Notes under the pieces: generated by a model
The model's database searches: none
What the model was told of the DNA's origin: nothing
The model's input: only the letters and a program-made list of their open reading frames with translations
Virus record (IMG/VR): IMGVR_UViG_3300030419_002340
Location: 1-30,722 of that record
DNA length: 30,722 nt
DNA from: a virus
Strand: one strand, 5' to 3'
Translations under genes and position numbers: made by a program
Part shown: in pieces, positions 13,297 through 30,722 of the stretch
Numbering within the stretch: position 1 is the stretch's first letter
Layout: each line of letters starts with the position of its first letter

Positions 13297-13325
13297 TTTT
13301 GTGGTACTAATTAATAGGAGCAAAT

Positions 13326-13505: not shown

Positions 13506-13506
13506 T

Positions 13507-14066: not shown

Positions 14067-14069
14067 ACA

Positions 14070-15104: not shown

Positions 15105-15127
15105 ACAAAAGAAAAGAGGAGAAGAGA

Positions 15128-15364: not shown

Positions 15365-15776
15365 ATCAGCTTTATTAGATAAATATAATTCAGAACCAAA
15401 AGAAGAAACTAAAAGGCTTGATCCAGAAGATGTTGAAAATCAAAAAGACCAATTACCAAATCCAACAGGATATAGACTTTTAGTTTTACCTTTTACTCCA
15501 AAAGAGAAAACTAAAGGTGGAATAATTTTTTCCCAAGAATCTTTAGACAAAGCAAGAATAGCTACAAATTGTGGTTATGTTTTAAAGATGGGAGATCTTG
15601 CATACAAGGATAAAGAAAAATTTAATGAACCTTGGTGCAAATTAGGAGATTGGGTGATTTTTGCAAGATATGCAGGATCACGATTACCAATAGAAGGTGG
15701 AGAAGTGCGAATACTAAACGATGATGAAGTGTTAGGGACTATAAAAGATCCCGAATCAATTCTTCATTACATATAA
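15315..15776 (+). CDS. groES: Phage GroES-like co-chaperonin
   Basis: The 153-residue protein has a GroES (Cpn10) beta-barrel domain from about residue 49 to the end: NPTGYRLLVLPFTP, then KTKGGIIFSQES in the position of the mobile loop that docks on GroEL, then GYVLKMGDLAYKD, LGDWVIFARYAGSRL and VRILNDDEVLGTI. The first ~48 residues are a polar, lysine/glutamate-rich extension absent from bacterial GroES. By analogy with T4 Gp31, it would cap host GroEL and help fold the capsid protein, and it lies just upstream of the scaffold and capsid genes. The start was chosen for its AAGGAG seven bases upstream; it overlaps the previous gene by 50 bases. An internal start nearer the domain is possible. 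Confidence 0.85.
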   Translation: MKKEQSSTSQGEIPKNKSALLDKYNSEPKEETKRLDPEDVENQKDQLPNPTGYRLLVLPFTPKEKTKGGIIFSQESLDKARIATNCGYVLKMGDLAYKDKEKFNEPWCKLGDWVIFARYAGSRLPIEGGEVRILNDDEVLGTIKDPESILHYI

Positions 15777-15791
15777 ACATAGGAAGGAACT

Positions 15792-16775
15792 ATGCAAGAA
15801 GAAGACATAAAAAAAGAACCTATGGTTGATGTAGGGGACACTAACGAAAGTGAAACTGAAGTCGATCTAGAAAAGAAGCCGGCAGAGCAGACAAATACTG
15901 CTGAGAAGGAAGAGATCAAAGTTGAACAGGTGGAGGATACGCCTGTTAAGACTGAGACTCCGAAAGAGGAAGAGAAGAAAGAAGAAACAAAGGTAGAAGA
16001 GAAAGACGAGTTAAAACAATATAGCGAAGGCGTTCAAAAACGTATTGCTAAATTAACTCGAAAAATGCGTGAAGCAGAAAGACAAAGAGAAGAAGCTATT
16101 GCTTTTGCAAAAACAGCTAAAAGTGAAAGAGATTTATTACAAGATAGATTCTCTAAACTTGATAAGTCTTATGTTTCTGAGTTTGAAACTAGAGTTAAAA
16201 CCAATATGGATGCTGCGAGAATTGCTTTAAAATCAGCAATTGAAACAGGAGACGTTGATGGTCAAGTTAAAGCTCAAGAACAAATGGCTAGTTTAACTGC
16301 AGATGCAGCTAGATTATCTTCTTTGAAAACATTGAAGGAAGAAACTGCTAAACAACAGGACAAAGAGGTAAAAGTTACACCTCAAGGTACTGAAACAGCT
16401 AAAACTGATCCTAAAGCGGAAGCTTGGGCATCTAAAAACAGCTGGTTTGGCAATGATACTGCAATGACTTATACTGCATTTGACATGCATAAAACACTCG
16501 TAGAGAAGGAAGGTTTCGACCCTCAATCTGACGAATATTATACGGAAATTGATAAAAGAATGAGACTTGAATTTCCGCAGAAATTTGATAAGATAGAAGG
16601 TACTTCTATAGAAAGAGCAAATAAACCTGCTCAGACTGTAGCATCAGCTAAACGTCCAAGCGTAACAGGACGCAGAAAAACTGTGAAACTCACACCATCA
16701 CAAACGGCAATCGCTAAAAGATTAGGTGTGCCACTTGAAGAGTACGCAAAACAATTAATCGCGAAGGAGGCGTAA
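15792..16775 (+). CDS. Capsid scaffolding protein
   Basis: The 327-residue protein begins with an extremely acidic Glu/Lys-rich region of about 75 residues. A long coiled coil follows (YSEGVQKRIAKLTRKMREAE onward to about residue 190). A conserved-looking C-terminal domain includes WASKNSWFGNDTAMTYTAF and YYTEIDKRMRLEFP, and the tail is basic, with a final helix that may bind the capsid protein. This order is that of phage scaffold proteins, which template the prohead and are later removed or degraded. It lies directly before the capsid genes and after the co-chaperonin, with GAAGGAACT as ribosome-binding site. No protease motif is visible in it. Confidence 0.78.
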   Translation: MQEEDIKKEPMVDVGDTNESETEVDLEKKPAEQTNTAEKEEIKVEQVEDTPVKTETPKEEEKKEETKVEEKDELKQYSEGVQKRIAKLTRKMREAERQREEAIAFAKTAKSERDLLQDRFSKLDKSYVSEFETRVKTNMDAARIALKSAIETGDVDGQVKAQEQMASLTADAARLSSLKTLKEETAKQQDKEVKVTPQGTETAKTDPKAEAWASKNSWFGNDTAMTYTAFDMHKTLVEKEGFDPQSDEYYTEIDKRMRLEFPQKFDKIEGTSIERANKPAQTVASAKRPSVTGRRKTVKLTPSQTAIAKRLGVPLEEYAKQLIAKEA

Positions 16776-16776
16776 C

Positions 16777-17238
16777 ATGAAAAACGAAAACATAAAAACT
16801 CATCGCGCGAGTCAGACAAGAGATAAGGTTAAAAGACCTACCACTTGGACTCCCCCGTCATCTTTAGATGCACCACCTGCGCCAGACGGCTTTCGGCACA
16901 GATGGATAAGAGCTGAGACTATGGGCTTTGATGATGCCCAGAATATGTCAGGCAAAGTTAGATCTGGATGGGAACTCGTGAGAGCAGACCAATACCCAGG
17001 TTCTGATTATCCAACTGTTAAAGAAGGCAAATATGCAGGAGTCATTGGGGTTGGCGGCCTATTGCTGGCTAGGATACCAGAAGAGGTTGCGAAAGCTCGT
17101 GAAGAGTACTTCAGAAAACAAACTGAAGCTAAAAACGAAGCATTAGACAACGACCTTATGAAGGAACAGCATCCAAGTATGCCGATCGATAGTGAAAGGC
17201 AAACTCGTGTAACCTTCGGTGGTACTAAGAAAAGTTAA
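16777..17238 (+). CDS. 153-aa head-module protein of unknown function
   Basis: The gene starts one base after the scaffold stop with a strong AAGGAGG site inside the end of the scaffold gene. The product opens with a basic region and RPTTWTPPSSLDAPPAPDGF, then RHRWIRAETMGFDDAQNMSG and SGWELVRADQYPGSDYP, then a GVIGVGGLLLARIPEEVAKA helix. The combination of a Pro-rich linker and Trp-containing short strands recalls small proteins that sit between scaffold and capsid genes in marine phages. I do not know its function. A head assembly or completion role is inferred from position. Confidence 0.72.
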   Translation: MKNENIKTHRASQTRDKVKRPTTWTPPSSLDAPPAPDGFRHRWIRAETMGFDDAQNMSGKVRSGWELVRADQYPGSDYPTVKEGKYAGVIGVGGLLLARIPEEVAKAREEYFRKQTEAKNEALDNDLMKEQHPSMPIDSERQTRVTFGGTKKS

Positions 17239-17275
17239 TCTTTTAACGATTCTAACCAACGAATTAACATAAACC

Positions 17276-17298
17276 GTTTACGACATTGTGTCGTAAAC
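17276..17298 (+). promoter_or_regulatory. Perfect 10-bp hairpin in the leader of the capsid gene pair
   Basis: GTTTACGACA (17276-17285) pairs exactly with TGTCGTAAAC (17289-17298) around TTG. It stands two bases before the AAGGAG of the decoration gene. There is no T-run. It could stabilise a processed 5' end or tune translation of the abundant virion genes that follow. Confidence 0.55.
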
Positions 17299-17313
17299 AT
17301 AAGGAGATAAACT

Positions 17314-17931
17314 ATGGCAAACAACAACACGCAAGGTTTCGGTTTGCGACCGATCATGAGAGTTGGTAATACACCTTCTATTCAAGGTCAGTCTAAATAC
17401 GAAATCGCTAGTGCTCAAGCTGGGACGCTATATAATGGAACACCTGTTAAAGTAGACATAAATGCCGCTACAGGTGGGTACATTGTTGAAGCTGCTCAAG
17501 GTACTGCTATGGTTGGAACTTTGAATGGTGTGTACTACACAGATGGTACAACTTCAAAACCAACATGGAAAAACTGGTACGTTGGCGGAACAACACCTGC
17601 GAACAGTGAGACCACTAAAGCGTTTGTAATCGATGATCCTTTTCAGGAATTCATGATTGCAACAAACGCAACACTAGGCGGAACGGTTGCTTTAAGACAA
17701 GCTAAAGTAGGCTTAACTTTTGCAACGACAGCAGCCGCTGGTGATGACACTAACGGAAGATCTTCTATAACATTGGATATTGCTTCTGCAGCAACAACTG
17801 CAAAACAATTGAGAATGGTTAGAGTAGGAGAAAATCCAGAAAACCAAGATGAGACAGCTGCATATTGCTCGGTTGTAGTTAAATGTAACTTACACCAGTA
17901 CTTAGTTGGCTCATTAGCAACAGGCATATAA
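17314..17931 (+). CDS. Probable capsid decoration or accessory head protein
   Basis: The 205-residue protein is beta-rich, small-residue-rich and low in charge. It opens MANNNTQGFGLRPIMRVGNT and contains IASAQAGTLYNGTPVKVD and FVIDDPFQEFMIATN. Composition and position immediately before the major capsid gene match head decoration or stabilising proteins of marine phages. The strong AAGGAGATAAACT leader nearly repeats that of the capsid gene, suggesting similarly high translation. A structured hairpin precedes the ribosome-binding site. I do not claim a specific family; a head fibre base or minor capsid protein would also fit. Confidence 0.68.
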   Translation: MANNNTQGFGLRPIMRVGNTPSIQGQSKYEIASAQAGTLYNGTPVKVDINAATGGYIVEAAQGTAMVGTLNGVYYTDGTTSKPTWKNWYVGGTTPANSETTKAFVIDDPFQEFMIATNATLGGTVALRQAKVGLTFATTAAAGDDTNGRSSITLDIASAATTAKQLRMVRVGENPENQDETAAYCSVVVKCNLHQYLVGSLATGI

Positions 17932-17945
17932 TAAGGAGATAAATT

Positions 17946-18851
17946 ATGGCAATATCACGATCACAGCTAGTTAAAGAACTAGAGCCAGGATTGAATGCTT
18001 TATTCGGCCTGGAATATAAAAGATATGAGAATCAGCACGCTGAAATCTTTGAAACAGAAAATTCAGACAGAGCTTTTGAAGAAGAAGTTATGTTATCTGG
18101 ATTCGGAAACGCACAGGTTAAAGCGGAAGGTCAAGGCGTATCATTTGATGATGCACAAGAGACTTTCACAGCTAGATACACTCATGAAACGATAGCACTT
18201 GCTTTCGCAATCACTGAAGAAGCGGTTGAAGATAACTTGTATGACAGACTTGCGTCTAGATATACAAAAGCATTAGCTAGATCTATGTCGAACACTAAAC
18301 AAGTGAAAGCGGCAAACGTTCTAAACAATGCATTCGACAACACTTACAAAGGTGGCGACGGAAAAGAACTATGTGCTACGGACCACCCGATATTAGCGGG
18401 ATCTTTCAAAAACGAGTTGACTACTTCAGCCGACTTGAATGAAACTTCCTTGGAGCAAGCTTTAATAGACATTGCTGCAATGGTTGATGAAAGAGGTCTT
18501 AAAATTGCTGCTAAGGGGAATAAAATGATTATTCCTTCTGCGCTTCAATTTACTGCTGAAAGACTGATGAAGTCTGCAGGTAGAGTTGGAACAGCTGATA
18601 ATGATATCAACGCTGTCAAATCAATGGGAATGGTTCCACAAGGTTATGTGGTTAACAATTTCTTAACTGATACTGACGCTTGGTTCATTAAAACAGATGT
18701 ACCTAACGGAATGAAAATGTTCGTTAGAGCACCAATTAAGACAGCTATGGAAGGTGACTTCGATACTGGTAACGTAAGATACAAAGCTAGAGAAAGATAC
18801 AGCTTCGGCTGGTCTGACCCTAGAGGTATTTTCGGCTCACCAGGAGCGTAA
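17946..18851 (+). CDS. Major capsid protein (Mu gpT-like HK97 fold)
   Basis: The 301-residue shell protein opens MAISRSQLVKELEPGLNALF and shows the features I associate with the Mu gpT-type capsid family: a FEEEVMLSGFGNAQVKAEGQ segment, an acidic-helix region EEAVEDNLYDRLASRYTKAL, CATDHPI at about residue 142, MIIPSALQFTAERL, and the C-terminal end YSFGWSDPRGIFGSPG. The length is typical for the family. No propeptide or protease gene is obvious, consistent with a separate scaffold protein upstream. The leader AAGGAGATAAATT is strong, and a hairpin follows the gene. Confidence 0.9.
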   Translation: MAISRSQLVKELEPGLNALFGLEYKRYENQHAEIFETENSDRAFEEEVMLSGFGNAQVKAEGQGVSFDDAQETFTARYTHETIALAFAITEEAVEDNLYDRLASRYTKALARSMSNTKQVKAANVLNNAFDNTYKGGDGKELCATDHPILAGSFKNELTTSADLNETSLEQALIDIAAMVDERGLKIAAKGNKMIIPSALQFTAERLMKSAGRVGTADNDINAVKSMGMVPQGYVVNNFLTDTDAWFIKTDVPNGMKMFVRAPIKTAMEGDFDTGNVRYKARERYSFGWSDPRGIFGSPGA

Positions 18852-18863
18852 TCTTAATTAATT

Positions 18864-18892
18864 AATGTGGCGGGACATAGTTCCGCCACATT
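18864..18892 (+). terminator. Hairpin after the capsid gene
   Basis: AATGTGGCGG (18864-18873) pairs perfectly with CCGCCACATT (18883-18892), and two more inner pairs are possible. It begins 12 bases after the capsid stop. Only a short T-run lies at the 3' side, so it is likely a partial terminator or a 3'-end stabiliser that keeps capsid mRNA high relative to downstream genes. Confidence 0.6.
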
Positions 18893-18911
18893 TACAGAAT
18901 AAAAGGTGGAA

Positions 18912-19166
18912 ATGGAAAAAGACTTCAAGGTAAGAATTATTGCATACGGCTATAAGACAGAATTTAATATTAGAGCCCAAGATAGTGTAGAAAGTATAGA
19001 ACAATCTATAGTTGACAAGCTGGGAGAAAATAGTGTAAAGTGGGACGAATCAGGATTTTATGACAAAGGTCGTAAATGGATAACCTATGAGGAGGTTAAT
19101 GATGGTACAAGACCTGTACAAACAGAAAAAGTCCTTGGAGTTGAGTTGGGAGCAGGAACACCTTAA
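18912..19166 (+). CDS. 84-aa small acidic protein of unknown function
   Basis: I chose the ATG at 18912 (AAGG five bases upstream) over the in-frame GTG two codons earlier. The product opens MEKDFKVRIIAYGYKTEFNI, continues with a helix (SVESIEQSIVDKL), then WDESGFYDKGRKWITYEEVN, and has a glycine-containing end. It is soluble, with a likely small alpha/beta fold. I do not recognise a family. It overlaps the next gene by 65 bases and holds the ribosome-binding site of that gene. It follows the capsid hairpin, so it is probably expressed at a lower level. Confidence 0.65.
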   Translation: MEKDFKVRIIAYGYKTEFNIRAQDSVESIEQSIVDKLGENSVKWDESGFYDKGRKWITYEEVNDGTRPVQTEKVLGVELGAGTP

Positions 19167-19311
19167 AGAAGGTAGATATACTCTCAATATGGTCAGAATC
19201 GATAGCGCTATAAGAGACGTTATTGGTCAGATTAAGCTGGAAGAAGCTAAAATTGCAGATAGAGAAAACTCTATTAATAATTCAGCTCCAGAAGTGTCAA
19301 TAGCCACTTAA
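19102..19311 (+). CDS. 69-aa helical protein of unknown function
   Basis: The AGGAGG at 19090-19095 decides the start at the ATG at 19102, six bases downstream. The upstream in-frame ATG at 19087 would place the ribosome-binding site inside the coding sequence. The product opens MVQDLYKQKKSLELSWEQEH and forms a long charged helix with a heptad pattern through VRIDSAIRDVIGQIKLEEAK, then a short polar tail. It overlaps the preceding gene in another frame. No family is recognised; a small coiled-coil assembly or chaperone-type protein is possible. Confidence 0.6.
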   Translation: MVQDLYKQKKSLELSWEQEHLKEGRYTLNMVRIDSAIRDVIGQIKLEEAKIADRENSINNSAPEVSIAT

Positions 19312-19407
19312 TAAAAAAAGCTATATATTCAGAAAGCATACTTTCAATACGGAACCTCTTGCGCTCTACTAAAAATAAGAGTATATTTAAAGCACTATAC
19401 AATAAAA

Positions 19408-19448
19408 GAATACTGACGAGTATAGTCGACGGCCTAGAGACAGTATTC
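19408..19448 (+). promoter_or_regulatory. Structured leader before the 130-aa virion gene
   Basis: GAATACTG (19408-19415) pairs with CAGTATTC (19441-19448), enclosing a GTCGAC-containing loop. It lies in the 161-base gap between 19311 and 19473, in which I see no gene. The AGGAGG of the next gene follows 13 bases later. A leader structure or RNase-processing site is possible. Confidence 0.4.
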
Positions 19449-19472
19449 GCAAATAACTAGGAGGATAATAAC

Positions 19473-19865
19473 ATGGCAACAACACTATTTAGAGGACCAG
19501 TTCTGCAAGGTAAATTTAACGAAGCAGGTGTAACTGGATTCAATCTAGAAGAAAAATCAGCTGCGTACACAGTTGCAAACGGAGACAGTGGAAAAACATT
19601 TACGTCAAAATCTGGCGATGTAACTTTCACTTTACCAGCAATAACAGAAGGCAGAGTATTTACATTTGTAAATACTGGTGCTGACTCAACAAATCAAATT
19701 AACTTTGCATGTAATGGTGCAGAAGTTATTAGATATGCTGGAGCGAACAATGCTACTTTAGCAAACACTAAAGCAACTTCTAAAGTTGGTGATTTCATCA
19801 CTATTGGAAGTTTAGAAGGTGGAACTAAATGGGCAGTTCTTAATGTACAAGGAATCTTCGCATAA
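19473..19865 (+). CDS. 130-aa probable virion surface or decoration protein
   Basis: This small beta-rich protein has a strong CTAGGAGGATAATAAC leader. It opens MATTLFRGPVLQGKFNEAGV, followed by repeats of Thr/Gly-rich strands (TFTSKSGDVTFTLPAITEGR) and VGDFITIGSLEGGTKWAVLN near the end, a pattern I know from trimeric or surface-exposed phage proteins. No signal peptide or catalytic motif is present. It has its own structured leader and trailing hairpin, so it appears to be a separately tuned unit. A decoration, head-fibre or capsid-associated role is inferred. Confidence 0.68.
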   Translation: MATTLFRGPVLQGKFNEAGVTGFNLEEKSAAYTVANGDSGKTFTSKSGDVTFTLPAITEGRVFTFVNTGADSTNQINFACNGAEVIRYAGANNATLANTKATSKVGDFITIGSLEGGTKWAVLNVQGIFA

Positions 19866-19873
19866 TTTTAATT

Positions 19874-19893
19874 GGAGCTCCTTCGGGAGCTCC
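19874..19893 (+). terminator. TTCG-loop hairpin after the 130-aa gene
   Basis: GGAGCTCC (19874-19881) pairs with a second GGAGCTCC (19886-19893) around the stable TTCG tetraloop. It begins eight bases after the stop and sits before the AAGGAG of the next gene. There is no strong T-run, so partial termination or mRNA stabilisation is likely. Confidence 0.6.
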
Positions 19894-19910
19894 ATTATTA
19901 AGGAGCACTA

Positions 19911-20228
19911 ATGGCAGGCGGAGGATCTTTTTCAAGTGATCAGGGGTTTACAACTCTAACGGCTGACGGAAATTTTAAAAGAATTACTGGAGGCACAACA
20001 GACATTGGACCTTGCAGAATTACATATATACAAGCTAATGGCAGTGCAGCAAACTGTACTGTAAAACTTTATGATGGAACTTCGGCAACAGGTAATCCAA
20101 CATTTCAAGCTAAATTTGGGACAGAAGGATTAGATATGTTTATACCAGGAAGTGGTATAAGATTTATTACAGGAGTTTATTTAGATTTGGATACAACTGA
20201 TTCAGTAACTATAGGATACACAGGATAA
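19911..20228 (+). CDS. 105-aa small virion protein, paralogue of the next gene
   Basis: This small beta-sandwich-like protein has a GTAAGGAG-type leader. It shares a motif order with the product of the next gene: GPCRITYIQANGSAANCTVK, then LYDGTS, FQAKF, DMFIPGSGIRF and a final Thr/Val-rich strand. It has no catalytic residues or membrane segments. Position after the head genes and before the adaptor proteins suggests a neck, connector or decoration role. The matching layout of the two proteins implies an old tandem duplication. No family is named with confidence. Confidence 0.68.
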   Translation: MAGGGSFSSDQGFTTLTADGNFKRITGGTTDIGPCRITYIQANGSAANCTVKLYDGTSATGNPTFQAKFGTEGLDMFIPGSGIRFITGVYLDLDTTDSVTIGYTG

Positions 20229-20500
20229 TGAGACCAACAGATGTAAAATCAGTTCGAATGACGGGAACAGGAAGTGTCTTTGCAGGACCAACAAGACTAA
20301 GAGGAATAATTTTAGCTTCAGATGGTTCAGCAGGTTCAGTTCAATTACAAGACGGGGACTCTGTGACACAATTTCAAGCAGACGTACCGGCTGGGGATAT
20401 TTTTAGTTTAAATATTCCACAAAACGGAATCTATTTTAAAGGTGGTATGACAGTATCAGCAATTTCAAATGCTACTGCTACTATTATTTTAGATAAGTAA
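20228..20500 (+). CDS. 90-aa small virion protein, paralogue of the preceding gene
   Basis: The product opens MRPTDVKSVRMTGTGSVFAG, then shows GPTRLRGIILASDGSAGSVQ, LQDGDS, FQADV, FSLNIPQNGIYFKGG and a final strand. The order and spacing of these elements parallel the preceding 105-aa protein. The start overlaps the previous stop by one base (TAATG). I regard it as a virion structural protein near the head-tail junction, inferred from context and composition. Confidence 0.68.
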   Translation: MRPTDVKSVRMTGTGSVFAGPTRLRGIILASDGSAGSVQLQDGDSVTQFQADVPAGDIFSLNIPQNGIYFKGGMTVSAISNATATIILDK

Positions 20501-20508
20501 GGAGTAAA

Positions 20509-21261
20509 ATGCCTACGTCAGGAACTACAGCGTTCGATTTACCAATCGACGAAATAGTCGAAGAAGCATTCGAAAGAACAGGAATGCGTGGTAATAGAAC
20601 AGGATATCAATTAAAAAGCGCTAGACGTTCTTTAAATATTCTTTTGACCGAATGGAATAATAGAGGAATTAATCTTTGGAAGATTAAATTGGCTACTATT
20701 CCTTTAGTTGAAGGACAAGCACAATATACTTATGCTAATGATAACACTAATTTTCCAACAGATATTAGTGATGTATTAGAAGCATATGTTAGAAATAATA
20801 CAACAGCGACAGCTCCGGTAGATACAACTTTATCAAAAATAGATAGGTCAGCATACGCAGCTTTAGCTAATAAACTTTCAAAAGGAACACCTTCTCAATA
20901 TTGGGTAGACAAAACTAGATATGTAAGAAATGCTGCTGGAGCAGTAACTGCATCACCTAGTGTATATTTATATCAAACACCAAGCTCTTCTTTTTCAGGA
21001 GCAAATTATCATTTAAAGTTTTATTATGTTGCTAAAATAGAAGATGCAGGAGCATACACATTAAATGCTGATGTTATTCATGGCTTTATTCCACCTATGT
21101 GTTCAGGTTTAGCTTATTACTTAAGTTTAAAATATTCACCAGATACAGCTCAAGCAAATAAATTAATTTATGAAGATGAAATGGCTAGAGCAGTAGCAGC
21201 AGATGGTTCACGATCATCTACTTACATAACACCACAAACATTCTATGGAGACGGAGTATAA
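20509..21261 (+). CDS. Head-tail adaptor (gp4-like)
   Basis: The 250-residue protein opens MPTSGTTAFDLPIDEIVEEA, continues FERTGMRGNRTGYQLKSARR, then SLNILLTEWNNRGINLWKI. This helical start followed by FPTDISDVLEAYVRN and a C-terminal domain with YYLSLKYSPD matches the tail accessory or head-tail adaptor proteins of short-tailed phages (P22 gp4-like family). It would extend the portal channel towards the tail. GTAAGGAGT lies seven bases upstream. The stop overlaps the next start. A second adaptor-type gene lies 0.8 kb downstream. Confidence 0.72.
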   Translation: MPTSGTTAFDLPIDEIVEEAFERTGMRGNRTGYQLKSARRSLNILLTEWNNRGINLWKIKLATIPLVEGQAQYTYANDNTNFPTDISDVLEAYVRNNTTATAPVDTTLSKIDRSAYAALANKLSKGTPSQYWVDKTRYVRNAAGAVTASPSVYLYQTPSSSFSGANYHLKFYYVAKIEDAGAYTLNADVIHGFIPPMCSGLAYYLSLKYSPDTAQANKLIYEDEMARAVAADGSRSSTYITPQTFYGDGV

Positions 21262-22088
21262 TGGGAACATGGTCAAAAGGCAGATGGTCAAAAGCAATTT
21301 CTGATAGATCAGGAATGCAATTTCCATATAATGAAATGGTAAAAGAATGGACAGGAGCTTTAGTTCATACTTCTGAATATGAACCTAAACAACCTCAACT
21401 ACAACCACCTTATCATCATGCAGATCCTCAAGCTTTATTAAATCCAAGACCTGATAGAACAGAATTTAATACCGCAACTCAAATGCCACCAAATCCTTTT
21501 TCAACTGCGGGCACAACTACTATAACAGTATTTCAACCAGCTCATGGTTATTCAGCAAATGACATTGTAAGATTTAGTAATGTTAATGTTCCATCTATTG
21601 GTGGATTAGACAGAAATGTTTTTAATTTAGAAACTACTCTAAATGGAGCTCTTACTGCAAATGCAACAACTGTTCCTTTAGCAGATACTTCTGATTTTCC
21701 AACTTCTGGATATATTTTTATAAAAGAAATTCAACCTGACTCTAATCCAGATGCAGTTGATAATAGTTTATTATATTATTATGAAGTTATTAAATATACA
21801 GGAATAGCTGGAGGAGCTTTAACTGGTTTAACAAGAGGAACTTCTGCTCAATTTTTTGGAGTAAGCCCGGCAACAACTTCTGCTCAAGCTTTTAGTTCTG
21901 GAACTAAAGTTTATGGTGGAAGAGCAGTTACTCCTATAACTCAACAAAGATATAATCAAATGGGAGTATTAGAAAATTTTAGTGATAAATATACTTTTAC
22001 AGTTCCAAACGCTGCAAGTTCAACTACTAGCGGTGGAGACTACCCTGTTTTTGCAGGACCTGTAAGTAATACAAGAACGTTAACATAA
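21261..22088 (+). CDS. 275-aa tail or neck protein of unknown fold
   Basis: The gene is coupled by a TAATG to the preceding adaptor gene. The N terminus, WSKGRWSKAISDRSGMQFPY followed by NEMVKEWTG and HTSEYEPKQPQLQPP, is a sequence I recognise as a recurring element of marine phage neck or tail proteins. The rest is beta-rich with ITVFQPAHGYSANDIVRFSN and Ser/Thr-rich linkers, consistent with a surface-exposed tail component. I do not know its exact function. It lies between two adaptor-type genes, which supports a place at the head-tail interface. Confidence 0.7.
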   Translation: MGTWSKGRWSKAISDRSGMQFPYNEMVKEWTGALVHTSEYEPKQPQLQPPYHHADPQALLNPRPDRTEFNTATQMPPNPFSTAGTTTITVFQPAHGYSANDIVRFSNVNVPSIGGLDRNVFNLETTLNGALTANATTVPLADTSDFPTSGYIFIKEIQPDSNPDAVDNSLLYYYEVIKYTGIAGGALTGLTRGTSAQFFGVSPATTSAQAFSSGTKVYGGRAVTPITQQRYNQMGVLENFSDKYTFTVPNAASSTTSGGDYPVFAGPVSNTRTLT

Positions 22089-22771
22089 TGGCATATACTT
22101 TAACAAATTTACAAGATGATATTAAAAACTACACAGAAGTAGATAGTTCTGTTTTTTCAACTTCTGTATTAAATAAATTAATACAAAATGCAGAAAATAA
22201 AATATATAGATCTGTGGATTCCGACGCAGATAGATATTATGCAACATCTAATACAGTTAATGGTAATAGATATGTGACTATTCCATCAGATTTAAGGATT
22301 ATTAGATATGTTCAAGTAAAAGATTCTACAGATGGTAATAAACAAAAATTTTTAGAACAAAGAGATACTAGTTTTATGGCAGAATATTATAATACGCCGG
22401 GAACAGCTGATGGAGTTCCTAAATATTATGCTAACTGGGACTCTAGTTATTGGGTAGTTGCTCCTACTCCAAATGGAACATATGAGATTACAATGGCTTA
22501 TATTAAACAGCCTGTTAGCTTAACTGATTCTTCAGTGAGCGGTAGTGGAACGTATTTATCCAATAAATATCAGGATTTACTTTTATATGCGACTCTTGTA
22601 GAAGCATATGGGTACTTGAAAGGCCCAGCAGATATGGTACAATACTATACTCAGGCTTACAATCAAGCTTTAGAAACGTACGCGATTGAACAACAAGGTC
22701 GTAGACGCAGAGGCGAATATGAAGATGGCGTTATTCGAACTCCTCTCAAGTCAATTAATCCATCACAATAA
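22088..22771 (+). CDS. Second head-tail adaptor (SU10 adaptor-like family)
   Basis: The 227-residue protein opens MAYTLTNLQDDIKNYTEVDS, with a helix LNKLIQNAENKIYRSVDSDA and then VTIPSDLRIIRYVQVKDSTD and WVVAPTPNGTYEITMAYIK. The C-terminal half has YQDLLLYATLVEAYGYLKGP, a pattern I associate with phage adaptor proteins related to the SU10 type. It ends with a basic RRRRGEYEDG tail. The one-base overlap couples it to the upstream gene. With the 250-aa gene it gives two adaptor-like proteins for one virion. Confidence 0.72.
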   Translation: MAYTLTNLQDDIKNYTEVDSSVFSTSVLNKLIQNAENKIYRSVDSDADRYYATSNTVNGNRYVTIPSDLRIIRYVQVKDSTDGNKQKFLEQRDTSFMAEYYNTPGTADGVPKYYANWDSSYWVVAPTPNGTYEITMAYIKQPVSLTDSSVSGSGTYLSNKYQDLLLYATLVEAYGYLKGPADMVQYYTQAYNQALETYAIEQQGRRRRGEYEDGVIRTPLKSINPSQ

Positions 22772-22785
22772 ATAGGAGATAAAAT

Positions 22786-23238
22786 ATGGCAAACATAGTA
22801 CCTGACTCGTTTAAAACTGGACTGTTAAAAGGAACTTTTAATTTTGACACAGCTGGTAATGGTGGAAACGCTTTTAAACTTGCTTTGTACACTAGCATCT
22901 CTTCTTACAGCACAGCGTCAACTGTTTATTTAGCAGGCACAGGAAATGGTGAAGTTAGTTCTTCTGGAACAAGCTACACTGCCGGCGGTAATGCATTGAC
23001 AAACAGTGGAGTATCAGTTTCATCAAATATCGCGTTTATAGATTTTTCTGATTTAACTTTCTCTTCTGTTACTTTAACTGCTGCAGGAGCTGCTATTTAC
23101 AAAACTACTGGCGGTGGTAACGAATTAGTTATGGTGTTAGATTTTGGTGGAAATAAAACGGCAACGAATGGCGATTTTGTTATTCAGTTCCCTACTAATG
23201 ATTCATCAAACGCAATTCTAAGAATTGGCGACGCGTAA
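22786..23238 (+). CDS. 150-aa tail surface protein
   Basis: The gene is preceded by AATAGGAGATAAAAT. The product opens MANIVPDSFKTGLLKGTFNF, followed by FKLALYTSISSYSTAST, GTSYTAGGNALTNSGVSVSS and IAFIDFSDLTFSSVTLTAAG. This is a layout I know from recurring marine phage tail proteins. The protein is almost entirely beta strand and low in charge. It has no signal peptide or enzyme motif. It starts the run of fibre-type genes, so a tail spike or fibre base role is likely; no reaction is claimed. Confidence 0.68.
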   Translation: MANIVPDSFKTGLLKGTFNFDTAGNGGNAFKLALYTSISSYSTASTVYLAGTGNGEVSSSGTSYTAGGNALTNSGVSVSSNIAFIDFSDLTFSSVTLTAAGAAIYKTTGGGNELVMVLDFGGNKTATNGDFVIQFPTNDSSNAILRIGDA

Positions 23239-23256
23239 CAGTAAGGATAAATAGAG

Positions 23257-23712
23257 ATGGCTTTTGTACTTAACGATAGAGTTAAACAGACTAGTACTAC
23301 GACTGGTACAGGCACATTTAGTTTAACAGGAACTGAAACAGGTTTCGAAACTTTTGTAACTGGTATCGGAAACAGTAATAATACATTCTATGCAATAGCA
23401 AACGATGGTACTTCTGAATGGGAAGTCGGTATTGGAACAGTAACTGACGCAGCTACTGATACACTTTCAAGAGATACCGTAATCTCCTCTTCTAATTCAG
23501 ATAGCTTAGTTGACTTTGCTGCAGGAACAAAAACTGTATTATGTACTTATCCTGCATCTAGAGCCCCTTCGGCTTCAATGACAGCTACATCTTACATTAA
23601 CACGCACAATTCAACTATATCAGATACACAAACAATTGATTCTGGAGTTTTAGCAGGACCAGTAAGTGTATCAGGTACGGTAACAGTAACAGGAAATTTA
23701 GTAATTATATAA
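23257..23712 (+). CDS. 151-aa tail-fibre-type protein
   Basis: The gene is preceded by GTAAGGATAAATAG. The product opens MAFVLNDRVKQTSTTTGTGT, then FSLTGTETGFETFVTGIGNS, YAIANDGTSEWEVGIGTVTD, LSRDTVISSSNSDSLVDFAA and TVLCTYPASRAP. These are elements I recognise from phage tail fibres and baseplate-proximal beta proteins. The C terminus is a low-complexity strand region (VSVSGTVTVTGNLVI). It is followed immediately by the first IPT/Ig gene. A role in host attachment is inferred from context. Confidence 0.7.
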   Translation: MAFVLNDRVKQTSTTTGTGTFSLTGTETGFETFVTGIGNSNNTFYAIANDGTSEWEVGIGTVTDAATDTLSRDTVISSSNSDSLVDFAAGTKTVLCTYPASRAPSASMTATSYINTHNSTISDTQTIDSGVLAGPVSVSGTVTVTGNLVII

Positions 23713-23713
23713 A

Positions 23714-24538
23714 ATGAGTACAATAGAAGTAGATAAAATAAAACCACAATCAGGAACAGCATTACAAGTTGGTGAATCCGGCGATACAATGACTGTACCT
23801 TCAGGTGCAACTTTAACTACTACAAACGCAACAGTAAATTTACCAAACACTTCAGTTACAAATGATAACTTAGCTGGGTCAATTGCAAATGCTAAACTTG
23901 CTAATTCAGCAATTACAATTAATGGAAGTGCTGTATCTTTAGGGGGTTCAGTTACTGTTGGGGAAACCAAACCTACCATTTCATCTATTAGTCCAAGTGT
24001 AGTTGAAAATACACAAACAGCGATAACAATAACAGGTACTAACTACGTTTCGATACCTTACGTTGATGCTATTAACTCTTCAACAGGTGCAATTGTAACA
24101 GCTGATAGTGTTGCATTTACTTCAGCTACAACAATTGTAGCTACATTTACATTGTCAGTTGATGGTACATACTTTCTTAGAATTGAAAATAATGATGGTA
24201 ATGCTGTAAGAAGCTCAACCGCATTATTAACAGTTTCAGATGCTCCTGCTTGGGTAACTGGTTCCGGAAGTTTAGGAGAAACAGACGCTGGAGGAACATT
24301 AAACTATACAGTATCAGCAACAAGTGCTACAAGTTATACAATTCAATCTGGAGCTTTACCAGGTGGGGGTTCACTTAACACCTCAACTGGTGTAATATCT
24401 GGAACGGAAACTGGCTCTACTACGTCAACAACATACAATTTTACTATTAGAGCAACAGACGCTGAAGCTCAAACAGCCGACAGAGCTTTCAGTATAACAA
24501 TATCTCACGGCGCAACTGGCGGCGGAGGTTTTAACTAG
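23714..24538 (+). CDS. IPT/Ig-domain adhesin, cassette copy 1
   Basis: The 274-residue protein has three parts. The first is an N-terminal fibre-type region (about 1-82) with SGDTMTVPSGATL and SITNG-type repeats, ending NGSAVSLGGSVTV. The second is an IPT/TIG-like Ig domain (about 84-165), KPTISSISPSVVENTQTAIT and onward. The third is a second Ig-like domain of the He_PIG kind (about 170-265), IQSGALPGGGSLNTSTGVIS then FTIRATDAEAQTADRAF. Such modules extend tail fibres and bind surfaces. The gene begins a three-gene set that recurs at 26955 and starts again at 30231. The ribosome-binding site is weak, so coupling from the upstream gene (one-base gap) is likely. Confidence 0.78.
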   Translation: MSTIEVDKIKPQSGTALQVGESGDTMTVPSGATLTTTNATVNLPNTSVTNDNLAGSIANAKLANSAITINGSAVSLGGSVTVGETKPTISSISPSVVENTQTAITITGTNYVSIPYVDAINSSTGAIVTADSVAFTSATTIVATFTLSVDGTYFLRIENNDGNAVRSSTALLTVSDAPAWVTGSGSLGETDAGGTLNYTVSATSATSYTIQSGALPGGGSLNTSTGVISGTETGSTTSTTYNFTIRATDAEAQTADRAFSITISHGATGGGGFN

Positions 24539-24547
24539 GATAATATT

Positions 24548-25906
24548 ATGGCAGGTACATGGCTTTCAAAATCAGGAATTGACCCCACATCATCAACAAC
24601 TACAGCAACTTGGAGTTTTTGGTTTAAAACTGATTCCCATACTGATGGTTCAACAGAACATTTTTTATTTTCAACTTACTCAGATGGTAATAGTAGAATG
24701 CATATTAAATTAGATGCTAACAACTGTGTTGATGTAAACAGTCGAATGAGTAGTACTGTTCATTTAAGTAAAATAACAAATAGACGATTAAATGACCCAA
24801 CTGCTTGGTATCATCTAGTAGTGACAATTGATACAACAGATGCAACAGCTGACGATAGATGTAAAATTTATGTCAATGGGGTAAGAGAAACAAGTTTTAG
24901 TTCTAGTACTAACCCATCACAAAACCAAGATATACAAAGTTTACAAGGTAATCAGACTCATTATGTAGCTACTTATGGTGGAAATACTGGTAATGCTTCC
25001 TACACATTTGGGGGATGTATGAGTTGTTTAAACTTTATTGATGGTACTGCTTATCAAGCTAGTACATTTGGAAGTACTGATTCGAGTACAGGCGAGTGGA
25101 AGATTAACGTCACACCGACGGTGACCTATGGAAATAACGGTTGGTTTATTCTTAAAAATGGAAGTGGAATAACTAACTTAGCTGGTAATTCTGCTGGAAA
25201 CTTTACTTTAGGAGGAGGTACACTTACAACAACCGTGGATAATCCGAGCAATAATTTCTGTTCCTTAAATCCTAGAGGATATGCAGCGAACAGTTTTACT
25301 TTGATTGAATTAAACAATTATTCAGGAGGAGCAGATAACAACTGGAGAAGTATTTTTGGAACTTTAGGAGCTAAAGCCGGAAAATATTATTATGAAATGA
25401 AATGTATAGGTACAAGTGGTAATGAAAGATTTGGAGCATGTACTGTAGACCAAGCTAATAAATGTACAGGTAGTACAGGAAGATATGATGATTCGGCCTC
25501 TGGTTCCGAAGGATATGGGTATGCTTCTGATGGACAAAAAACAAATAATGGTGGTGCAGCTTCTTATGGTAACACTTGGACAACTAATGATATTTTATCT
25601 TGTGCTATAGATTTAGATAATAATAAAATTTATTTTGGAAAAAATGGAACATGGCAAGATTCAGGAGACCCAACCTCAGGTTCTACTGGTACTGGTGCTG
25701 CATATACAATAGCATCAGATAAGTTTTATATCCCAGCTTTTGCAAGTTATGGTGCTGCAGCTAATTTAGCATTTAATTTTGGAAATGGCTTATTTAGAAC
25801 AACCGCTATAAGTAGTGAGGGAACAAATGCAAGTGGAGTTGGAAAATTTGAATATGATGTTCCAACGGGATATACTGCTTGGTCAACTAAAGGATTAAAT
25901 AAATAA
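24548..25906 (+). CDS. LamG plus SPRY-domain adhesin, cassette copy 1
   Basis: The 452-residue protein starts with a concanavalin A-like LamG-type domain (about 1-185). Evidence includes WYHLVVTIDTTDATADDRCK, IYVNGVRETSF and FIDGTAYQASTFG. The C-terminal part is SPRY-like (about 279-430), with GKYYYEMKCIGTSG, then IDLDNNKIYFGKNGTWQDSG and LAFNFGNGLF. Both folds bind sugars or proteins on cell surfaces. The gene follows the IPT/Ig gene with an AACTAGGATAATATT leader and overlaps the next gene by one base. The strongest parallel is the paralogue at 27761. Receptor binding is inferred. Confidence 0.8.
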   Translation: MAGTWLSKSGIDPTSSTTTATWSFWFKTDSHTDGSTEHFLFSTYSDGNSRMHIKLDANNCVDVNSRMSSTVHLSKITNRRLNDPTAWYHLVVTIDTTDATADDRCKIYVNGVRETSFSSSTNPSQNQDIQSLQGNQTHYVATYGGNTGNASYTFGGCMSCLNFIDGTAYQASTFGSTDSSTGEWKINVTPTVTYGNNGWFILKNGSGITNLAGNSAGNFTLGGGTLTTTVDNPSNNFCSLNPRGYAANSFTLIELNNYSGGADNNWRSIFGTLGAKAGKYYYEMKCIGTSGNERFGACTVDQANKCTGSTGRYDDSASGSEGYGYASDGQKTNNGGAASYGNTWTTNDILSCAIDLDNNKIYFGKNGTWQDSGDPTSGSTGTGAAYTIASDKFYIPAFASYGAAANLAFNFGNGLFRTTAISSEGTNASGVGKFEYDVPTGYTAWSTKGLNK

Positions 25907-26952
25907 TGGCTAATTATACAACAGTTAATAAATCTACAGACTATTTTAATACTAAACTATGGACAGGAACAGGTTCAGAATTAGCTATTACAGGAATTAA
26001 TTACCAGCCAGATATGGTCTGGGTAAAACGTAAAGAAATAAAAGATCATAATTTGTATGATGCAGTAAGAGCTGCAACAAAAATAATTTATCCTAACGAT
26101 TCTTCAGGGGAAGATACAGATGCACAATCTTTAAAAAGTTTTGACTCTGATGGATTTACATTAGGGACAGCCACAAATGTAAATGCTAGTGGAGGAACTT
26201 ATGTTTCTTGGAATTGGAAAGCCAACGGAGCTGGCTCCTCAAATACCGATGGATCTATAAGCGCGACAGTTTCTGTTGATACAACAGCAAAACAATCGAT
26301 AGTCAAATGGACTGGGACAGGAGCAAATGCTACAGTGGGGCATGGACTTGGAACAGCTCCAGCATTAATATTAATGAAAAATTTAGTAGATAGTGAACAT
26401 TGGGTTGTCTATCATGAATCACTAGGAAATACTCAGATAGTACAATTAAATACGACTAGTGGTTTTAAAGTTAATTCTAAATATTTTAACGATACGTCTC
26501 CAACTAATTCAGTCTTTACAGTAGGAGATGGTGGCGAAGTAAATGGCTCAGGAGATGGAATGATTGCTTATTGTTTTGCTAATAACCCTGGGTACTTTCA
26601 AACTGGAGAATATTATGGCAACGGAAATAATGATGGCCCCTTCATTGTGACAGGCTTTCGCCCTGCTCTTGTGCTAATTAAGAACTATGCAGATAGTAGT
26701 GGTGCAAGTAATAATGGTGGTAATTGGGGAATGTGGGACAACAAAAGAGAGGGATATAACCCTGAAAATGAAGTTCTTTATGCCAATTTAAACAATGCCC
26801 AAGGAACTACTAACTTTTTAGATTTCTGTGGTAGTGGTTTTAAAATAACTAACAGTGATAGTGATTTTAATAATAATAATAATAGATATATCTATTTTGC
26901 TGTTGGCCAAACTATGAGTGGTACCAACAATGTACCATGTAACGCGTTTTAA
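25906..26952 (+). CDS. Third cassette gene: conserved phage surface protein, copy 1
   Basis: The 348-residue protein opens MANYTTVNKSTDYFNTKLWT. Recognisable elements are PDMVWVKRKEIKDHNLYDAV, VSWNWKANG, VGHGLGTAPALILMKN (about 143-158), MIAYCFANNPGYFQTGEY, GPFIVTGFRPALVLIKN and RYIYFAVGQTM. I know this layout from marine phage surface proteins that accompany SPRY or LamG genes; the fold is unnamed to me (a DUF7483-type domain is possible). Duplicated GFxPxLVLIKN-like lines suggest internal repeats. The gene is coupled to the LamG+SPRY gene by a TAATG overlap and parallels the protein at 29137. Confidence 0.75.
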   Translation: MANYTTVNKSTDYFNTKLWTGTGSELAITGINYQPDMVWVKRKEIKDHNLYDAVRAATKIIYPNDSSGEDTDAQSLKSFDSDGFTLGTATNVNASGGTYVSWNWKANGAGSSNTDGSISATVSVDTTAKQSIVKWTGTGANATVGHGLGTAPALILMKNLVDSEHWVVYHESLGNTQIVQLNTTSGFKVNSKYFNDTSPTNSVFTVGDGGEVNGSGDGMIAYCFANNPGYFQTGEYYGNGNNDGPFIVTGFRPALVLIKNYADSSGASNNGGNWGMWDNKREGYNPENEVLYANLNNAQGTTNFLDFCGSGFKITNSDSDFNNNNNRYIYFAVGQTMSGTNNVPCNAF

Positions 26953-26954
26953 TT

Positions 26955-27761
26955 ATGACTAGTACAGTAAAAGTAAATACAATAACAACAGAATCAGGTA
27001 ATACTATTACCGTTGGTGAAGCGGGGAAAACTATTGCTCTTAACACTAATACTGCTGTTAATTTACCTACTGGATCAGTAACTAATGCAGAGTTAGCTGG
27101 ATCAATTGCAAATGCAAAATTAACTAATAGTAGTATTACTATAAATGGTTCGCCTGTTTCTTTAGGTGGAAGTGTAACTGTGGGAGAAACCAAACCTACA
27201 ATTTCATCTATTTCACCCAGTGTAATAGAAAACACTCAAACAGCTGTAACAATTACAGGAAGTAACTTTGTTTCTCTTCCTTATGTAGATGCAATTAATT
27301 CTTCTACAGGTGCTATTACGACAGCTGATTCAGTTAGTTTTACAAGTTCAACAACATTAGTTTGTAATTTTACATTATCTGTAGATGGCACTTATTATCT
27401 AAGAATAGAAAATAACGACGGGAATGCTGTAAGATCCAGTACTGCATTATTAACCGTCTCTGATGCTCCAGCATGGGTAACAGCTGCTGGAAGTTTAGGA
27501 ACAACAGCTGCGGCAACTTCAATAAGTTATACCGTAAATGCTACCGATGCGACTTCATACGCAATTCAATCAGGTTCCCTTCCAGGTGGAGGTTCATTAA
27601 ACACAGCTACTGGTGCAATAACTGGTACTGAAACTGGTTCTACAGCTACAACTACATACAATTTTACGATTAGGGCTACTGATGCTGAAGCACAAACGGC
27701 AGATAGGGCCTTCTCAATTACAATTTCTCATGGTATACAAAATGGAGGACAATTCAATTAA
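26955..27761 (+). CDS. IPT/Ig-domain adhesin, cassette copy 2
   Basis: The 268-residue protein has the same domain order as the 23714 gene. Its N terminus (MTSTVKVNTITTESGNTITV) is shorter and different, lacking the PSGATL element shared by copies 1 and 3. From GETKPTISSISPSV onward it follows copy 1 almost residue for residue, including IENNDGNAVRSSTALLTVSD and RATDAEAQTADRAFSITISH. Codon choice differs at many positions between these stretches, so the similarity is kept by selection at the protein level. It begins two bases after the previous stop. Confidence 0.78.
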   Translation: MTSTVKVNTITTESGNTITVGEAGKTIALNTNTAVNLPTGSVTNAELAGSIANAKLTNSSITINGSPVSLGGSVTVGETKPTISSISPSVIENTQTAVTITGSNFVSLPYVDAINSSTGAITTADSVSFTSSTTLVCNFTLSVDGTYYLRIENNDGNAVRSSTALLTVSDAPAWVTAAGSLGTTAAATSISYTVNATDATSYAIQSGSLPGGGSLNTATGAITGTETGSTATTTYNFTIRATDAEAQTADRAFSITISHGIQNGGQFN

Positions 27762-29125
27762 TGGCTGCTTATATTGATTTAGGAACAGGATTTGGAGATA
27801 GTAAAACTTACACTATATCTACGTGGGTTAAAGGTTATAACCAATTTAGAGTACAAGAAGACAATCCAATTATGTCTGCAGGTAGTGGTGGTAATGGTGC
27901 TGAATTTAGATTTAATGATGGAAATTTAGAATTTTATAATTATCCAGGTTCATACAATGCAAGAGTTCAAACTAATGCTCGATTAGATGATGTAAATGCT
28001 TGGTATCATGTTATGGCAGCAATTGATACTACACAAGCTAGTTCATCTGATAGAATAAAACTTTATATAAATGGAGTTCAAGAAACTTCATTAGCTCAAA
28101 GCACTTATCCCTCACAAAACACACAACTGTATATAGGGGACGCCTCATCTACTCATTATGTTGCAAATAATTATAGTAGTGGACAACAATTTTTAGGACT
28201 AATGACACACTTTGCTTTTGTTAATGGAAGTGCATTAACACCTACTTCATTTGGGGAAACAGATACAGATACAGGTATCTGGAAGCCTAAATCCGATTTA
28301 TCTAGTCTTACTTGGGGCACAAAAGGTTTTTGGCTTAAATTTGAAAATTCAGCAAACCTGGATTTAGATAGTTCTTCTAATGCTAATACTTTTACAACTA
28401 GTGGGACTATTACACAGACTAATGATACTCCTTCGAACAATTTTGCCGTCTTAAATGTAATGGGCTATAAAAATGGTGGCCCAGAAATAGCTAACGGTTT
28501 AACAACAGTTACAAGTGATGGTAGTACAAAATTTTGTTATGCTAGTTCACTTGGGGTTAATAAAGGTAAATACTACGCTGAATTTAAAATAGTTGGTAAT
28601 GAAGATAGCGCTACCCATCATATCGGTATTACAAGTGATCCAGCTACTAACGCTTCATACAATCAATTTCCAGGAGAAGATAATATAAGTTATTCTTATG
28701 GTCAGTTTGGAAGCACTTGGTATAATGGTACTGGAACAGCTCAAGGAACTACTTATACAACAGGTGATATCGTAGGAGTAGCATTGGACTGCGATAATTC
28801 AAAATTGTATTTTAGTAAAAATGGAACTTGGATTTCAATAGGTGGAGTTACTGGAGTTCCAACTTCAGGGGCAAGTGGAACTGGAGCTATAAGTATAAAT
28901 TCCCCAACTGCAAATACTGGAAATGGTTTTTGGCATTTTGCTATTGGTGATAATTCTGGAAGTTATGGTGGAGCAAATGTTGTAGCATGTAACTTTGGGA
29001 ACGGTTATTTTCAAACAACCGCAGTGGCTTCAGCAGGTACATCACCATCAGAAGGTGGAGTATTTGAATATGATTGTCCTAGTGGATATCAAGCATTATG
29101 TACTAAAGGAATGAATAGTTTTTAA
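27761..29125 (+). CDS. LamG plus SPRY-domain adhesin, cassette copy 2
   Basis: The 454-residue protein parallels the 452-residue protein at 24548. The LamG-type half includes NAWYHVMAAIDTTQASSSDR, IKLYINGVQETSL and FAFVNGSALTPTSFGETD. The SPRY-like half (about 268-440) has GKYYAEFKIVGNEDSATHHI, then LDCDNSKLYFSKNGTWI and VACNFGNGYF. It ends FEYDCPSGYQALCTKGMNSF, against FEYDVPTGYTAWSTKGLNK in copy 1. The sequences share architecture but differ widely, as expected for receptor-binding paralogues. It overlaps the IPT/Ig gene by one base. Confidence 0.8.
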   Translation: MAAYIDLGTGFGDSKTYTISTWVKGYNQFRVQEDNPIMSAGSGGNGAEFRFNDGNLEFYNYPGSYNARVQTNARLDDVNAWYHVMAAIDTTQASSSDRIKLYINGVQETSLAQSTYPSQNTQLYIGDASSTHYVANNYSSGQQFLGLMTHFAFVNGSALTPTSFGETDTDTGIWKPKSDLSSLTWGTKGFWLKFENSANLDLDSSSNANTFTTSGTITQTNDTPSNNFAVLNVMGYKNGGPEIANGLTTVTSDGSTKFCYASSLGVNKGKYYAEFKIVGNEDSATHHIGITSDPATNASYNQFPGEDNISYSYGQFGSTWYNGTGTAQGTTYTTGDIVGVALDCDNSKLYFSKNGTWISIGGVTGVPTSGASGTGAISINSPTANTGNGFWHFAIGDNSGSYGGANVVACNFGNGYFQTTAVASAGTSPSEGGVFEYDCPSGYQALCTKGMNSF

Positions 29126-29136
29126 GGAGAAAAAAT

Positions 29137-30225
29137 ATGGCATACGGCACAGTTAATAAATCACAAACAATCGTTACTCCCAATATCTACACAGGGACAG
29201 GATCAGAACCAAGAGCTTTAACAGGATTTGGTCATCAAACAGATCTACTCTGGGTATTTAGGAGAGACAGCACAATGCATCCAACAATTAATGATAGTGT
29301 TCAAGGAGCAACTCAATGGATATATTCTGACTTAGACCAAGGAGCAGATACATCAACACAAGCCATAACTTATGGAACAGATGGTATAACTTGGAATGGT
29401 GGAAACTATGATCGAAATGATAATGGTGCAAATTATTTAGCATTATCTTGGAAAGCCGGCACAACAACTGGAATATCTGCTGGTTCACAAACTATAACTC
29501 CTGCTTCTTATAGTATTAATGTTGATGCGGGTTTTGGAATTTATAAATACACTGGAAATGGAAGTAGTACACAAACTATATCTCATGGTTTAGGTGCTGC
29601 ACCAACTTTTATGATGATTAAAAGAATAAATGGAGGAAATAGTTATTGGGCAGTTTACCACAAAAATTCAGGAGCTGATAAAAGATTAACTTTAAACACA
29701 ACTGCTGCATCTGCAACTAATGCTAATACATGGCAAGACACAGACCCAACATCAACTGTTTTTACAATTGGAAGTAATTCAAGAGTTAATGAAAATGGTC
29801 AAGAATATATTGCTTATGTTTGGGCTAACAAAAATGGTAGTTTTCATGCAGGACAATACAGGGGTAATGGAGATAGTGCAGACGGCCCCTTTGTTTACAC
29901 CGGCTTTAAACCAGGAATTATTTTGTTTAAAGACAATAATGCTACTACAAACTGGACAATTAGAAATGTTGCTACAGACACATTTAACTATATACGAAAT
30001 TACAATTTTCCAAATACCAATACCGCAGGAACAGACATAGGTCCTCCGGCAACAAGTGGTGGTGAAACAAGTACTATATGTGCTACAGGATTTAAATTAA
30101 GAGGAACTAACGATGCCTATTGGAACCAAAGTAGCCAAACATATGTTTATGCTGCTTGGCCAATAGAAAATTTAGTAGGAGGAACAAATAATATTCCTAA
30201 TGTAGCGGGATTAACTAGTAATTAA
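29137..30225 (+). CDS. Third cassette gene: conserved phage surface protein, copy 2
   Basis: The 362-residue protein parallels the 348-residue protein at 25906. Matching lines include the opening MAYGTVNKSQTIVTPNIYTG, YLALSWKAGTTTG, ISHGLGAAPTFMMIKRINGG (about 148-167), YIAYVWANKNGSFHAGQYRG and GPFVYTGFKPGIILFKD, and the tail has YVYAAWPIENLVGG. Unlike copy 1 it has its own strong TAAGGAGAAAAAAT leader and does not overlap its predecessor. The function is unknown; a virion surface or fibre-tip part is inferred from the cassette. Confidence 0.74.
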   Translation: MAYGTVNKSQTIVTPNIYTGTGSEPRALTGFGHQTDLLWVFRRDSTMHPTINDSVQGATQWIYSDLDQGADTSTQAITYGTDGITWNGGNYDRNDNGANYLALSWKAGTTTGISAGSQTITPASYSINVDAGFGIYKYTGNGSSTQTISHGLGAAPTFMMIKRINGGNSYWAVYHKNSGADKRLTLNTTAASATNANTWQDTDPTSTVFTIGSNSRVNENGQEYIAYVWANKNGSFHAGQYRGNGDSADGPFVYTGFKPGIILFKDNNATTNWTIRNVATDTFNYIRNYNFPNTNTAGTDIGPPATSGGETSTICATGFKLRGTNDAYWNQSSQTYVYAAWPIENLVGGTNNIPNVAGLTSN

Positions 30226-30230
30226 TAATT

Positions 30231-30722
30231 ATGAGTGAAGTAAAAGTAAATAAAGTAACACCAAGATCAGGAACCGCAGTACAACTGGGGGATTCCGGCG
30301 ATACATTTACTGTACCAAGTGGAGCAACATTAACCACTACTAATGCTACAGTTAATTTACCCAATACTTCAGTCACAAATGCGAATTTAGCTGGCTCTAT
30401 AGAAAATGCAAAACTGACTAACAGTGCTATTACTATAAATGGATCAGCTGTTTCTTTAGGGGGATCAGTTACAGTAGGAGAAACTAAACCTACTATTTCT
30501 TCAATTAGTCCTTCGGTAATTGAAAATACACAAACAGCGGTAACGATTACAGGAACTAATTATGTTTCAGTGCCTTATGTTGATGCTATTAATGCTTCAA
30601 CAGGAGCTATTACAGCTGCTGATAGTGTGACTTTTACAAGCGCTACCTCATTAACTTGCAATTTTACATTGTCTGTTGATGGAACATATTATATAAGAAT
30701 AGAGAACAATGATGGTAATGCA
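30231..30722 (+). CDS. IPT/Ig-domain adhesin, cassette copy 3, partial
   Basis: The frame is open to the right edge, giving 164 residues of the N-terminal part. It starts MSEVKVNKVTPRSGTAVQLG and contains SGDTFTVPSGATLTTTNATV, closer to copy 1 than to copy 2. The IPT/TIG-like domain begins GETKPTISSISPSVIENTQT and continues to IENNDGNA at the edge. It begins five bases after the stop of the preceding gene, with no strong ribosome-binding site, and implies a third three-gene cassette beyond the window. Confidence 0.8.
   Translation, partial: MSEVKVNKVTPRSGTAVQLGDSGDTFTVPSGATLTTTNATVNLPNTSVTNANLAGSIENAKLTNSAITINGSAVSLGGSVTVGETKPTISSISPSVIENTQTAVTITGTNYVSVPYVDAINASTGAITAADSVTFTSATSLTCNFTLSVDGTYYIRIENNDGNA

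Follow-up and report, generated by a model that had tools for sequence, protein, structure and literature searches.

A candidate three-address tail-fibre array with exchangeable adhesin tips in an HTVC023P/HTVC027P-like pelagiphage

Multi-fibre complexes with conserved N-termini are already known from the Ackermannviridae, whose branched tail-spike complex TSP1-TSP4 brings together several receptor-binding proteins whose N-terminal docking parts are conserved and whose tips vary, and in which the exchange of whole units changes host recognition (PMC11414711). Marine host-recognition islands are known as well, the metaviromic islands and host-recognition clusters of marine phages having been described as variable islands of host-recognition genes (PMC3909814, PMC7029224). 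Single modules of three genes, here called A, B and C, occur in HTVC011P, Skadi, HTVC021P and others, where a tail-fibre gene with an A-like C-terminus is followed by B and C, and the variability of Skadi-1 is also on record. HTVC023P and 023Pt_psg01 carry an array of Gly-rich fibre units.

We analysed a tandem array of A-B-C units in a 30,722-base stretch of viral DNA (the window), which is the whole of IMG/VR record IMGVR_UViG_3300030419_002340. As in the Ackermannviridae complex, there are several units with conserved N-termini and variable candidate tips; unlike in that complex, the unit comprises three genes and the presumed tip is a separate B-C pair. HTVC011P, Skadi and HTVC021P have one module behind a long tail-fibre gene, whereas the window has three short A genes, each beginning with an N-terminal tag. 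The array shares with those of HTVC023P and 023Pt_psg01 its slot after a 151-aa gene and the same three kinds of start (alpha, beta and gamma), but in the latter each unit is one gene with a Gly_rich_2 tip, and HTVC023P has four units. The accessible portions of the marine island papers mention neither cassettes in tandem nor tags nor an exchange of paired tips. In the literature searched, which was of partial coverage, we found no description of a tandem A-B-C array, of the three tags or of paired tip exchange, no mention of DUF7483, and nothing that combined pelagiphage with tail fiber and SPRY.

Layout of the array and its phage

The right end of the window reads A1-B1-C1-A2-B2-C2-A3, with every gene on the + strand and hardly any gaps between them. 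The features are as follows (An, N-terminal attachment-like region).

23257..23712, +, 151-aa gene, left border of the fibre-array slot
23714..24538, +, A1: An, TIG and He_PIG, with tag alpha MSTIEVDKIKPQSG (Pfam He_PIG 4e-10; TIG assigned via homology to A2)
23714..23755, +, tag alpha, first 14 codons of A1 (profile trained on Gly-rich arrays only: 38 bits, margin 18)
23990..30225, +, block that differs between the window and its sister contig L084, from the end of the A1 tag region to the start of A3
24548..25906, +, B1: LamG and SPRY lectin-like protein (Pfam SPRY 4e-12, Laminin_G_3 6e-10)
25906..26952, +, C1: DUF7483 tail-fibre-family protein (Pfam about 1e-105 to 2e-105; phrog_24898 tail fiber 3e-86)
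26955..27761, +, A2: An, TIG and He_PIG, with the beta-like tag MTSTVKVN (Pfam He_PIG 6e-11, TIG 2e-6)
26955..26996, +, beta-like tag, first 14 codons of A2 (beta by motif; profile alpha 20.7 with a margin of just 2.9 bits, hence ambiguous)
27761..29125, +, B2: LamG and SPRY (Pfam Laminin_G_3 4e-14, SPRY 1e-9)
29137..30225, +, C2: DUF7483 (Pfam 6e-72; phrog_24898 2e-60)
30231..30722, +, A3: An and TIG, with tag gamma MSEVKVNKVTPRSG, open at the contig end (98% nucleotide identity to A3 of L084)
30231..30272, +, tag gamma, first 14 codons of A3 (profile gamma, 52.9 bits, margin 33; gamma by motif too)

The initial annotation had placed an ordered three-gene set at 23714, its recurrence at 26955 and a third start at 30231, with a period of about 3.25 kb. 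Open reading frames, Pfam matches and homology between the copies bore out both coordinates and order, and the start-to-start distances were 3241 and 3276 bp. Its IPT/Ig and LamG+SPRY calls agreed with Pfam (TIG and He_PIG on A, Laminin_G_3 and SPRY on B), and its conserved surface protein proved to be DUF7483, matched over its full length above the curated Pfam cutoff of 27 bits (C1 353 bits, C2 243 bits). The C proteins fall in PHROGs annotated as tail fiber and virion structural; the sole match of a C profile to solved structures was marginal (the cannula protein CanA, E 0.005) and was not used. Phage C72C1 and Synechococcus phage S-B68 (L166:249-4673, L168:12670-17004) encode single proteins of 1444-1474 aa in which LamG is accompanied by several consecutive DUF7483 domains, so that the same domains are multiplied within one protein and not across genes.

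Searches for N-terminal domains of other fibre systems were negative: the Gp10-like XD and TD1 domains of the Ackermannviridae type had no Pfam or PHROG match on A1-A3, and the T7-type domain PF03906 had no Pfam match on them. No depolymerase domain was found in the fibre units of the window.

By the closeness of its TerL and major capsid proteins, the window belongs with the HTVC023P-type pelagiphages. TerL identity was 74% to HTVC027P and 60% to HTVC023P, capsid identity was 78% to both, and the 151-aa border gene was 66% identical to its HTVC023P counterpart. As TerL and capsid are closest to these two cultured Pelagibacter phages, and the border gene is related as well, the host is probably SAR11. 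The record is incomplete in size, at 30.7 kb versus 57-61 kb for the HTVC023P and HTVC027P genomes. Elsewhere in the window we observed a 153-aa protein (15315-15776) that by eye resembles a GroES/Cpn10-type co-chaperonin (TGYRLLVLPF...KTKGGI...), a pair of very large proteins (886 and 979 aa; 5216-10815) that lie between terminase and portal and contain repeated GGRIGF-like motifs, and, upstream of the tail genes, adjoining short proteins (105 and 90 aa; 19911-20500) whose small beta-rich patterns are alike. The border gene was present in 95 fetched loci, most of which continue with fibre units, both A-B-C and Gly-rich.

The window ends within A3, a region that resembles A1 and A2, and this is the one point in favour of regarding the third unit, or the tandem itself, as an assembly artefact. 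The initial annotation had named such an artefact, and a third copy ending at its first gene, as the outcomes that would undo the cassette repeat. Neither was found. The sister contig L084 (IMGVR_UViG_3300030098_003709), 96% identical to the window over 13247-24557 and 98% over A3, continues from the same A3 into a complete B3 and C3. Three complete units were present in nine distinct contigs, L084 and eight more, and two in 14, the window counted among the 14; the record of isolate HTVC103P also holds two A-B-C units. A mis-joined copy is moreover incompatible with identities of 40% between B1 and B2 and 35% between C1 and C2. An artefact is thus very unlikely, to the point of being scarcely credible.

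Age of the repeat and exchange of the B-C pair

The copies are homologous far beyond chance. A1 shares 75% amino acid identity with A2 (E 1e-134) and 83% with A3, and the E values for the B1/B2 and C1/C2 matches were 3e-68 and 3e-54. The long repeat at the DNA level (300 nt, 73-78% identity) sits in A, and B and C repeat mainly as protein. Among array-carrying genomes, C identity was about 45% in the same genome or another and at the same position or another, B identity was 37-41% in every such class, and A identity was 58-65% at matching position versus 49-56% within one genome. As two copies from one genome resemble each other no more than two from different genomes, the repeat units are old. 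The tandem repeat of the initial annotation is therefore not a recent duplication, which these identities rule out. General within-genome homogenisation of A was likewise ruled out, since A sorts by position; the window/L084 lineage, whose A copies are more similar, is an exception.

Position changes were counted on trees for nine three-unit arrays, the window and the two-unit L060. A needed 4 (shuffled mean 15.6), B 8 (15.0) and C 12 (15.0), a count for C that was equally low in 7 of 200 shuffles. Together with the class identities, these counts indicate that the units are old, that A is kept in place and that B and especially C are mobile.

Comparison of close relatives pointed in the same direction. 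Identity between the window and L084 was approximately 98% up to about position 23990, 72-74% in the TIG/PIG part of A1, fell from 58% to 37% into B1, and was back at 98% from 30225. At the protein level, B1, C1, B2 and C2 had best matches of just 32-48% in L084. Since the break falls within A1 here, A is not spared in every case. L061 and L120 share 86% identity over 9.2 kb and 99% in the 1.5 kb preceding A1, and each A gene of one corresponds to the A gene at the same position in the other; B3-C3 of L061, however, corresponds to B1-C1 of L120 (71% and 76% amino acid identity). An intact B-C pair thus stands at position 3 in one phage and at position 1 in the other, and has changed position between them. 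A near-identical relative of these two (L119:6677-16673) has fragmented A, B and C genes, possibly through sequencing indels. When B was measured in 16 pairs of loci with upstream DNA identity of 93-100% (at least 93% in each), it differed in 14 (48-75% nucleotide identity) and was near-identical in the other two. A remained at 95-98% in L061/L120, L029/L041 and L049/L111.

B and C also vary together. Their distances were correlated (rho 0.41, with 0 of 1000 permutations as high), whereas A-C distances were uncorrelated (rho -0.05) and A-B distances weakly so (0.17), and B and C are fused as one ORF in L037, L069 and L083. In Skadi-1, where B lies at 14408-15730 and C at 13353-14408, the hypervariable region mapped from read data to 13,646-15,713 (PMC10504331) falls inside B plus C, and the adjoining tail-fibre gene with its A-like C-terminus lies outside. 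Because of the evidence from L084, L061/L120, the 16 pairs, covariation, fusion and Skadi-1 together, the B-C pair is taken as the exchange unit, which is the best-supported part of this report. The swapping by recombination proposed in the initial annotation is accordingly strongly supported by relatives that are near-identical upstream yet usually carry another B, and by the pair that moved between two phages; the whole cassette is not the usual unit of exchange, as A holds its position while B-C moves. As regards a diversity-generating retroelement, no RVT_1 (reverse transcriptase) match was present in the window, an incomplete record of 30.7 kb.

A variable chaperone gene is a common neighbour downstream of fibre genes, and B, C or both might accordingly be assembly chaperones of fibre A, replaced along with it and forming no part of the tip. 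We consider this distinctly improbable: Pfam assigns lectin-type folds to B, the B and C domains occur inside large single proteins such as those of C72C1 and S-B68 and in PHROG virion structural families, and B and C vary without A.

N-terminal tags of the A proteins

The first 10 or so residues of the units sort into three tags, with the consensus MSKIEVDKIIPQSG for alpha, MSEVKVNKISPRSG for gamma and MSSILKVDTIQDQ or MTSTIKVDNIQDQ for beta. The motifs were defined after inspection of the sequences and the arrays are related, so that the following counts are not independent: one of each tag was present in 21 of 22 arrays with at least three motif-tagged units, in the orders alpha-gamma-beta (10), alpha-beta-gamma (10) and gamma-alpha-beta (1). 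The 22nd array, that of HTVC023P, reads alpha-beta-gamma-gamma and so has two gammas. In HTVC023P and 023Pt_psg01 the same tags precede Gly_rich_2 fibres in the same slot. Profiles built from Gly-rich arrays only recovered alpha-gamma-beta in nine other arrays, seven of them purely A-B-C and two mixed with a Gly-rich unit; L091 and L117 combine both tip types. By profile, the middle tags were ambiguous, with margins of 2.9 bits in the window and 4.7 bits in L084, and two arrays deviated (L007, gamma-beta-beta; L133, alpha-gamma-gamma).

The main rival to an address function is that the tags are simply inherited termini, left from three fibre genes that are ancient paralogues, serving as homology anchors for recombination; they would then confer no docking specificity, and the units would share equivalent sites or alternate. 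One of each tag would be retained simply through allelic recombination between homologous starts of A, and alpha has no clear excess of diversity at third codon positions, such that its conservation at the protein level is not clearly supported. Such conservation is clearly supported for gamma, where diversity was 0.22 at the third position versus 0.10 and 0.08 at the others, and the tags are shared by unrelated tips and arranged in three orders; these observations speak against mere anchors. We therefore regard tags without docking specificity as unlikely.

Working model and its meaning

Our preferred reading, to which we give a probability of about 60%, is that the window carries a three-address tail-fibre array of an HTVC023P/HTVC027P-like pelagiphage with exchangeable adhesin tips. 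A would be the fibre stem, attached by its N-terminus to the virion or an adjacent fibre, with its TIG/Ig-like domains forming a short shaft. B (LamG and SPRY) and C (DUF7483) would together make up the adhesin tip and move as matched partners. The tags alpha, beta and gamma would act as addresses, assigning every unit a separate docking place, and three different tips would be present on one virion. Through recombination anchored in conserved A sequence, the B-C pair, or a longer block, would be replaced while the addresses stayed undisturbed, shifting host recognition stepwise. The sequences themselves show the units, their tags, the keeping of A, the replacement of B-C and the kinship of terminase and capsid with cultured SAR11 phages; from these we infer the docking by tags, the display of three units on one virion, the binding of receptors by B-C and the SAR11 host. 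The simultaneous display of several receptor-binding assemblies, as the initial annotation envisaged, is plausible, and replacement of B-C between related viruses probably changes what the virus can stick to. More tentatively, abundant marine phages may possess a three-address tail in which each tag docks one unit at a fixed place, with an A-B-C or Gly-rich tip pluggable at any address and one of each address per virion.

SAR11 is among the most abundant bacterial groups in the sea and the commonest in the ocean, and to our knowledge little is known of how its phages recognize cells. If each unit does consist of an address and an exchangeable tip pair, variable islands would become readable: addresses could be counted, tip pairs listed and each tip matched to a host. 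The B-C pair would then offer defined protein targets for receptor work.
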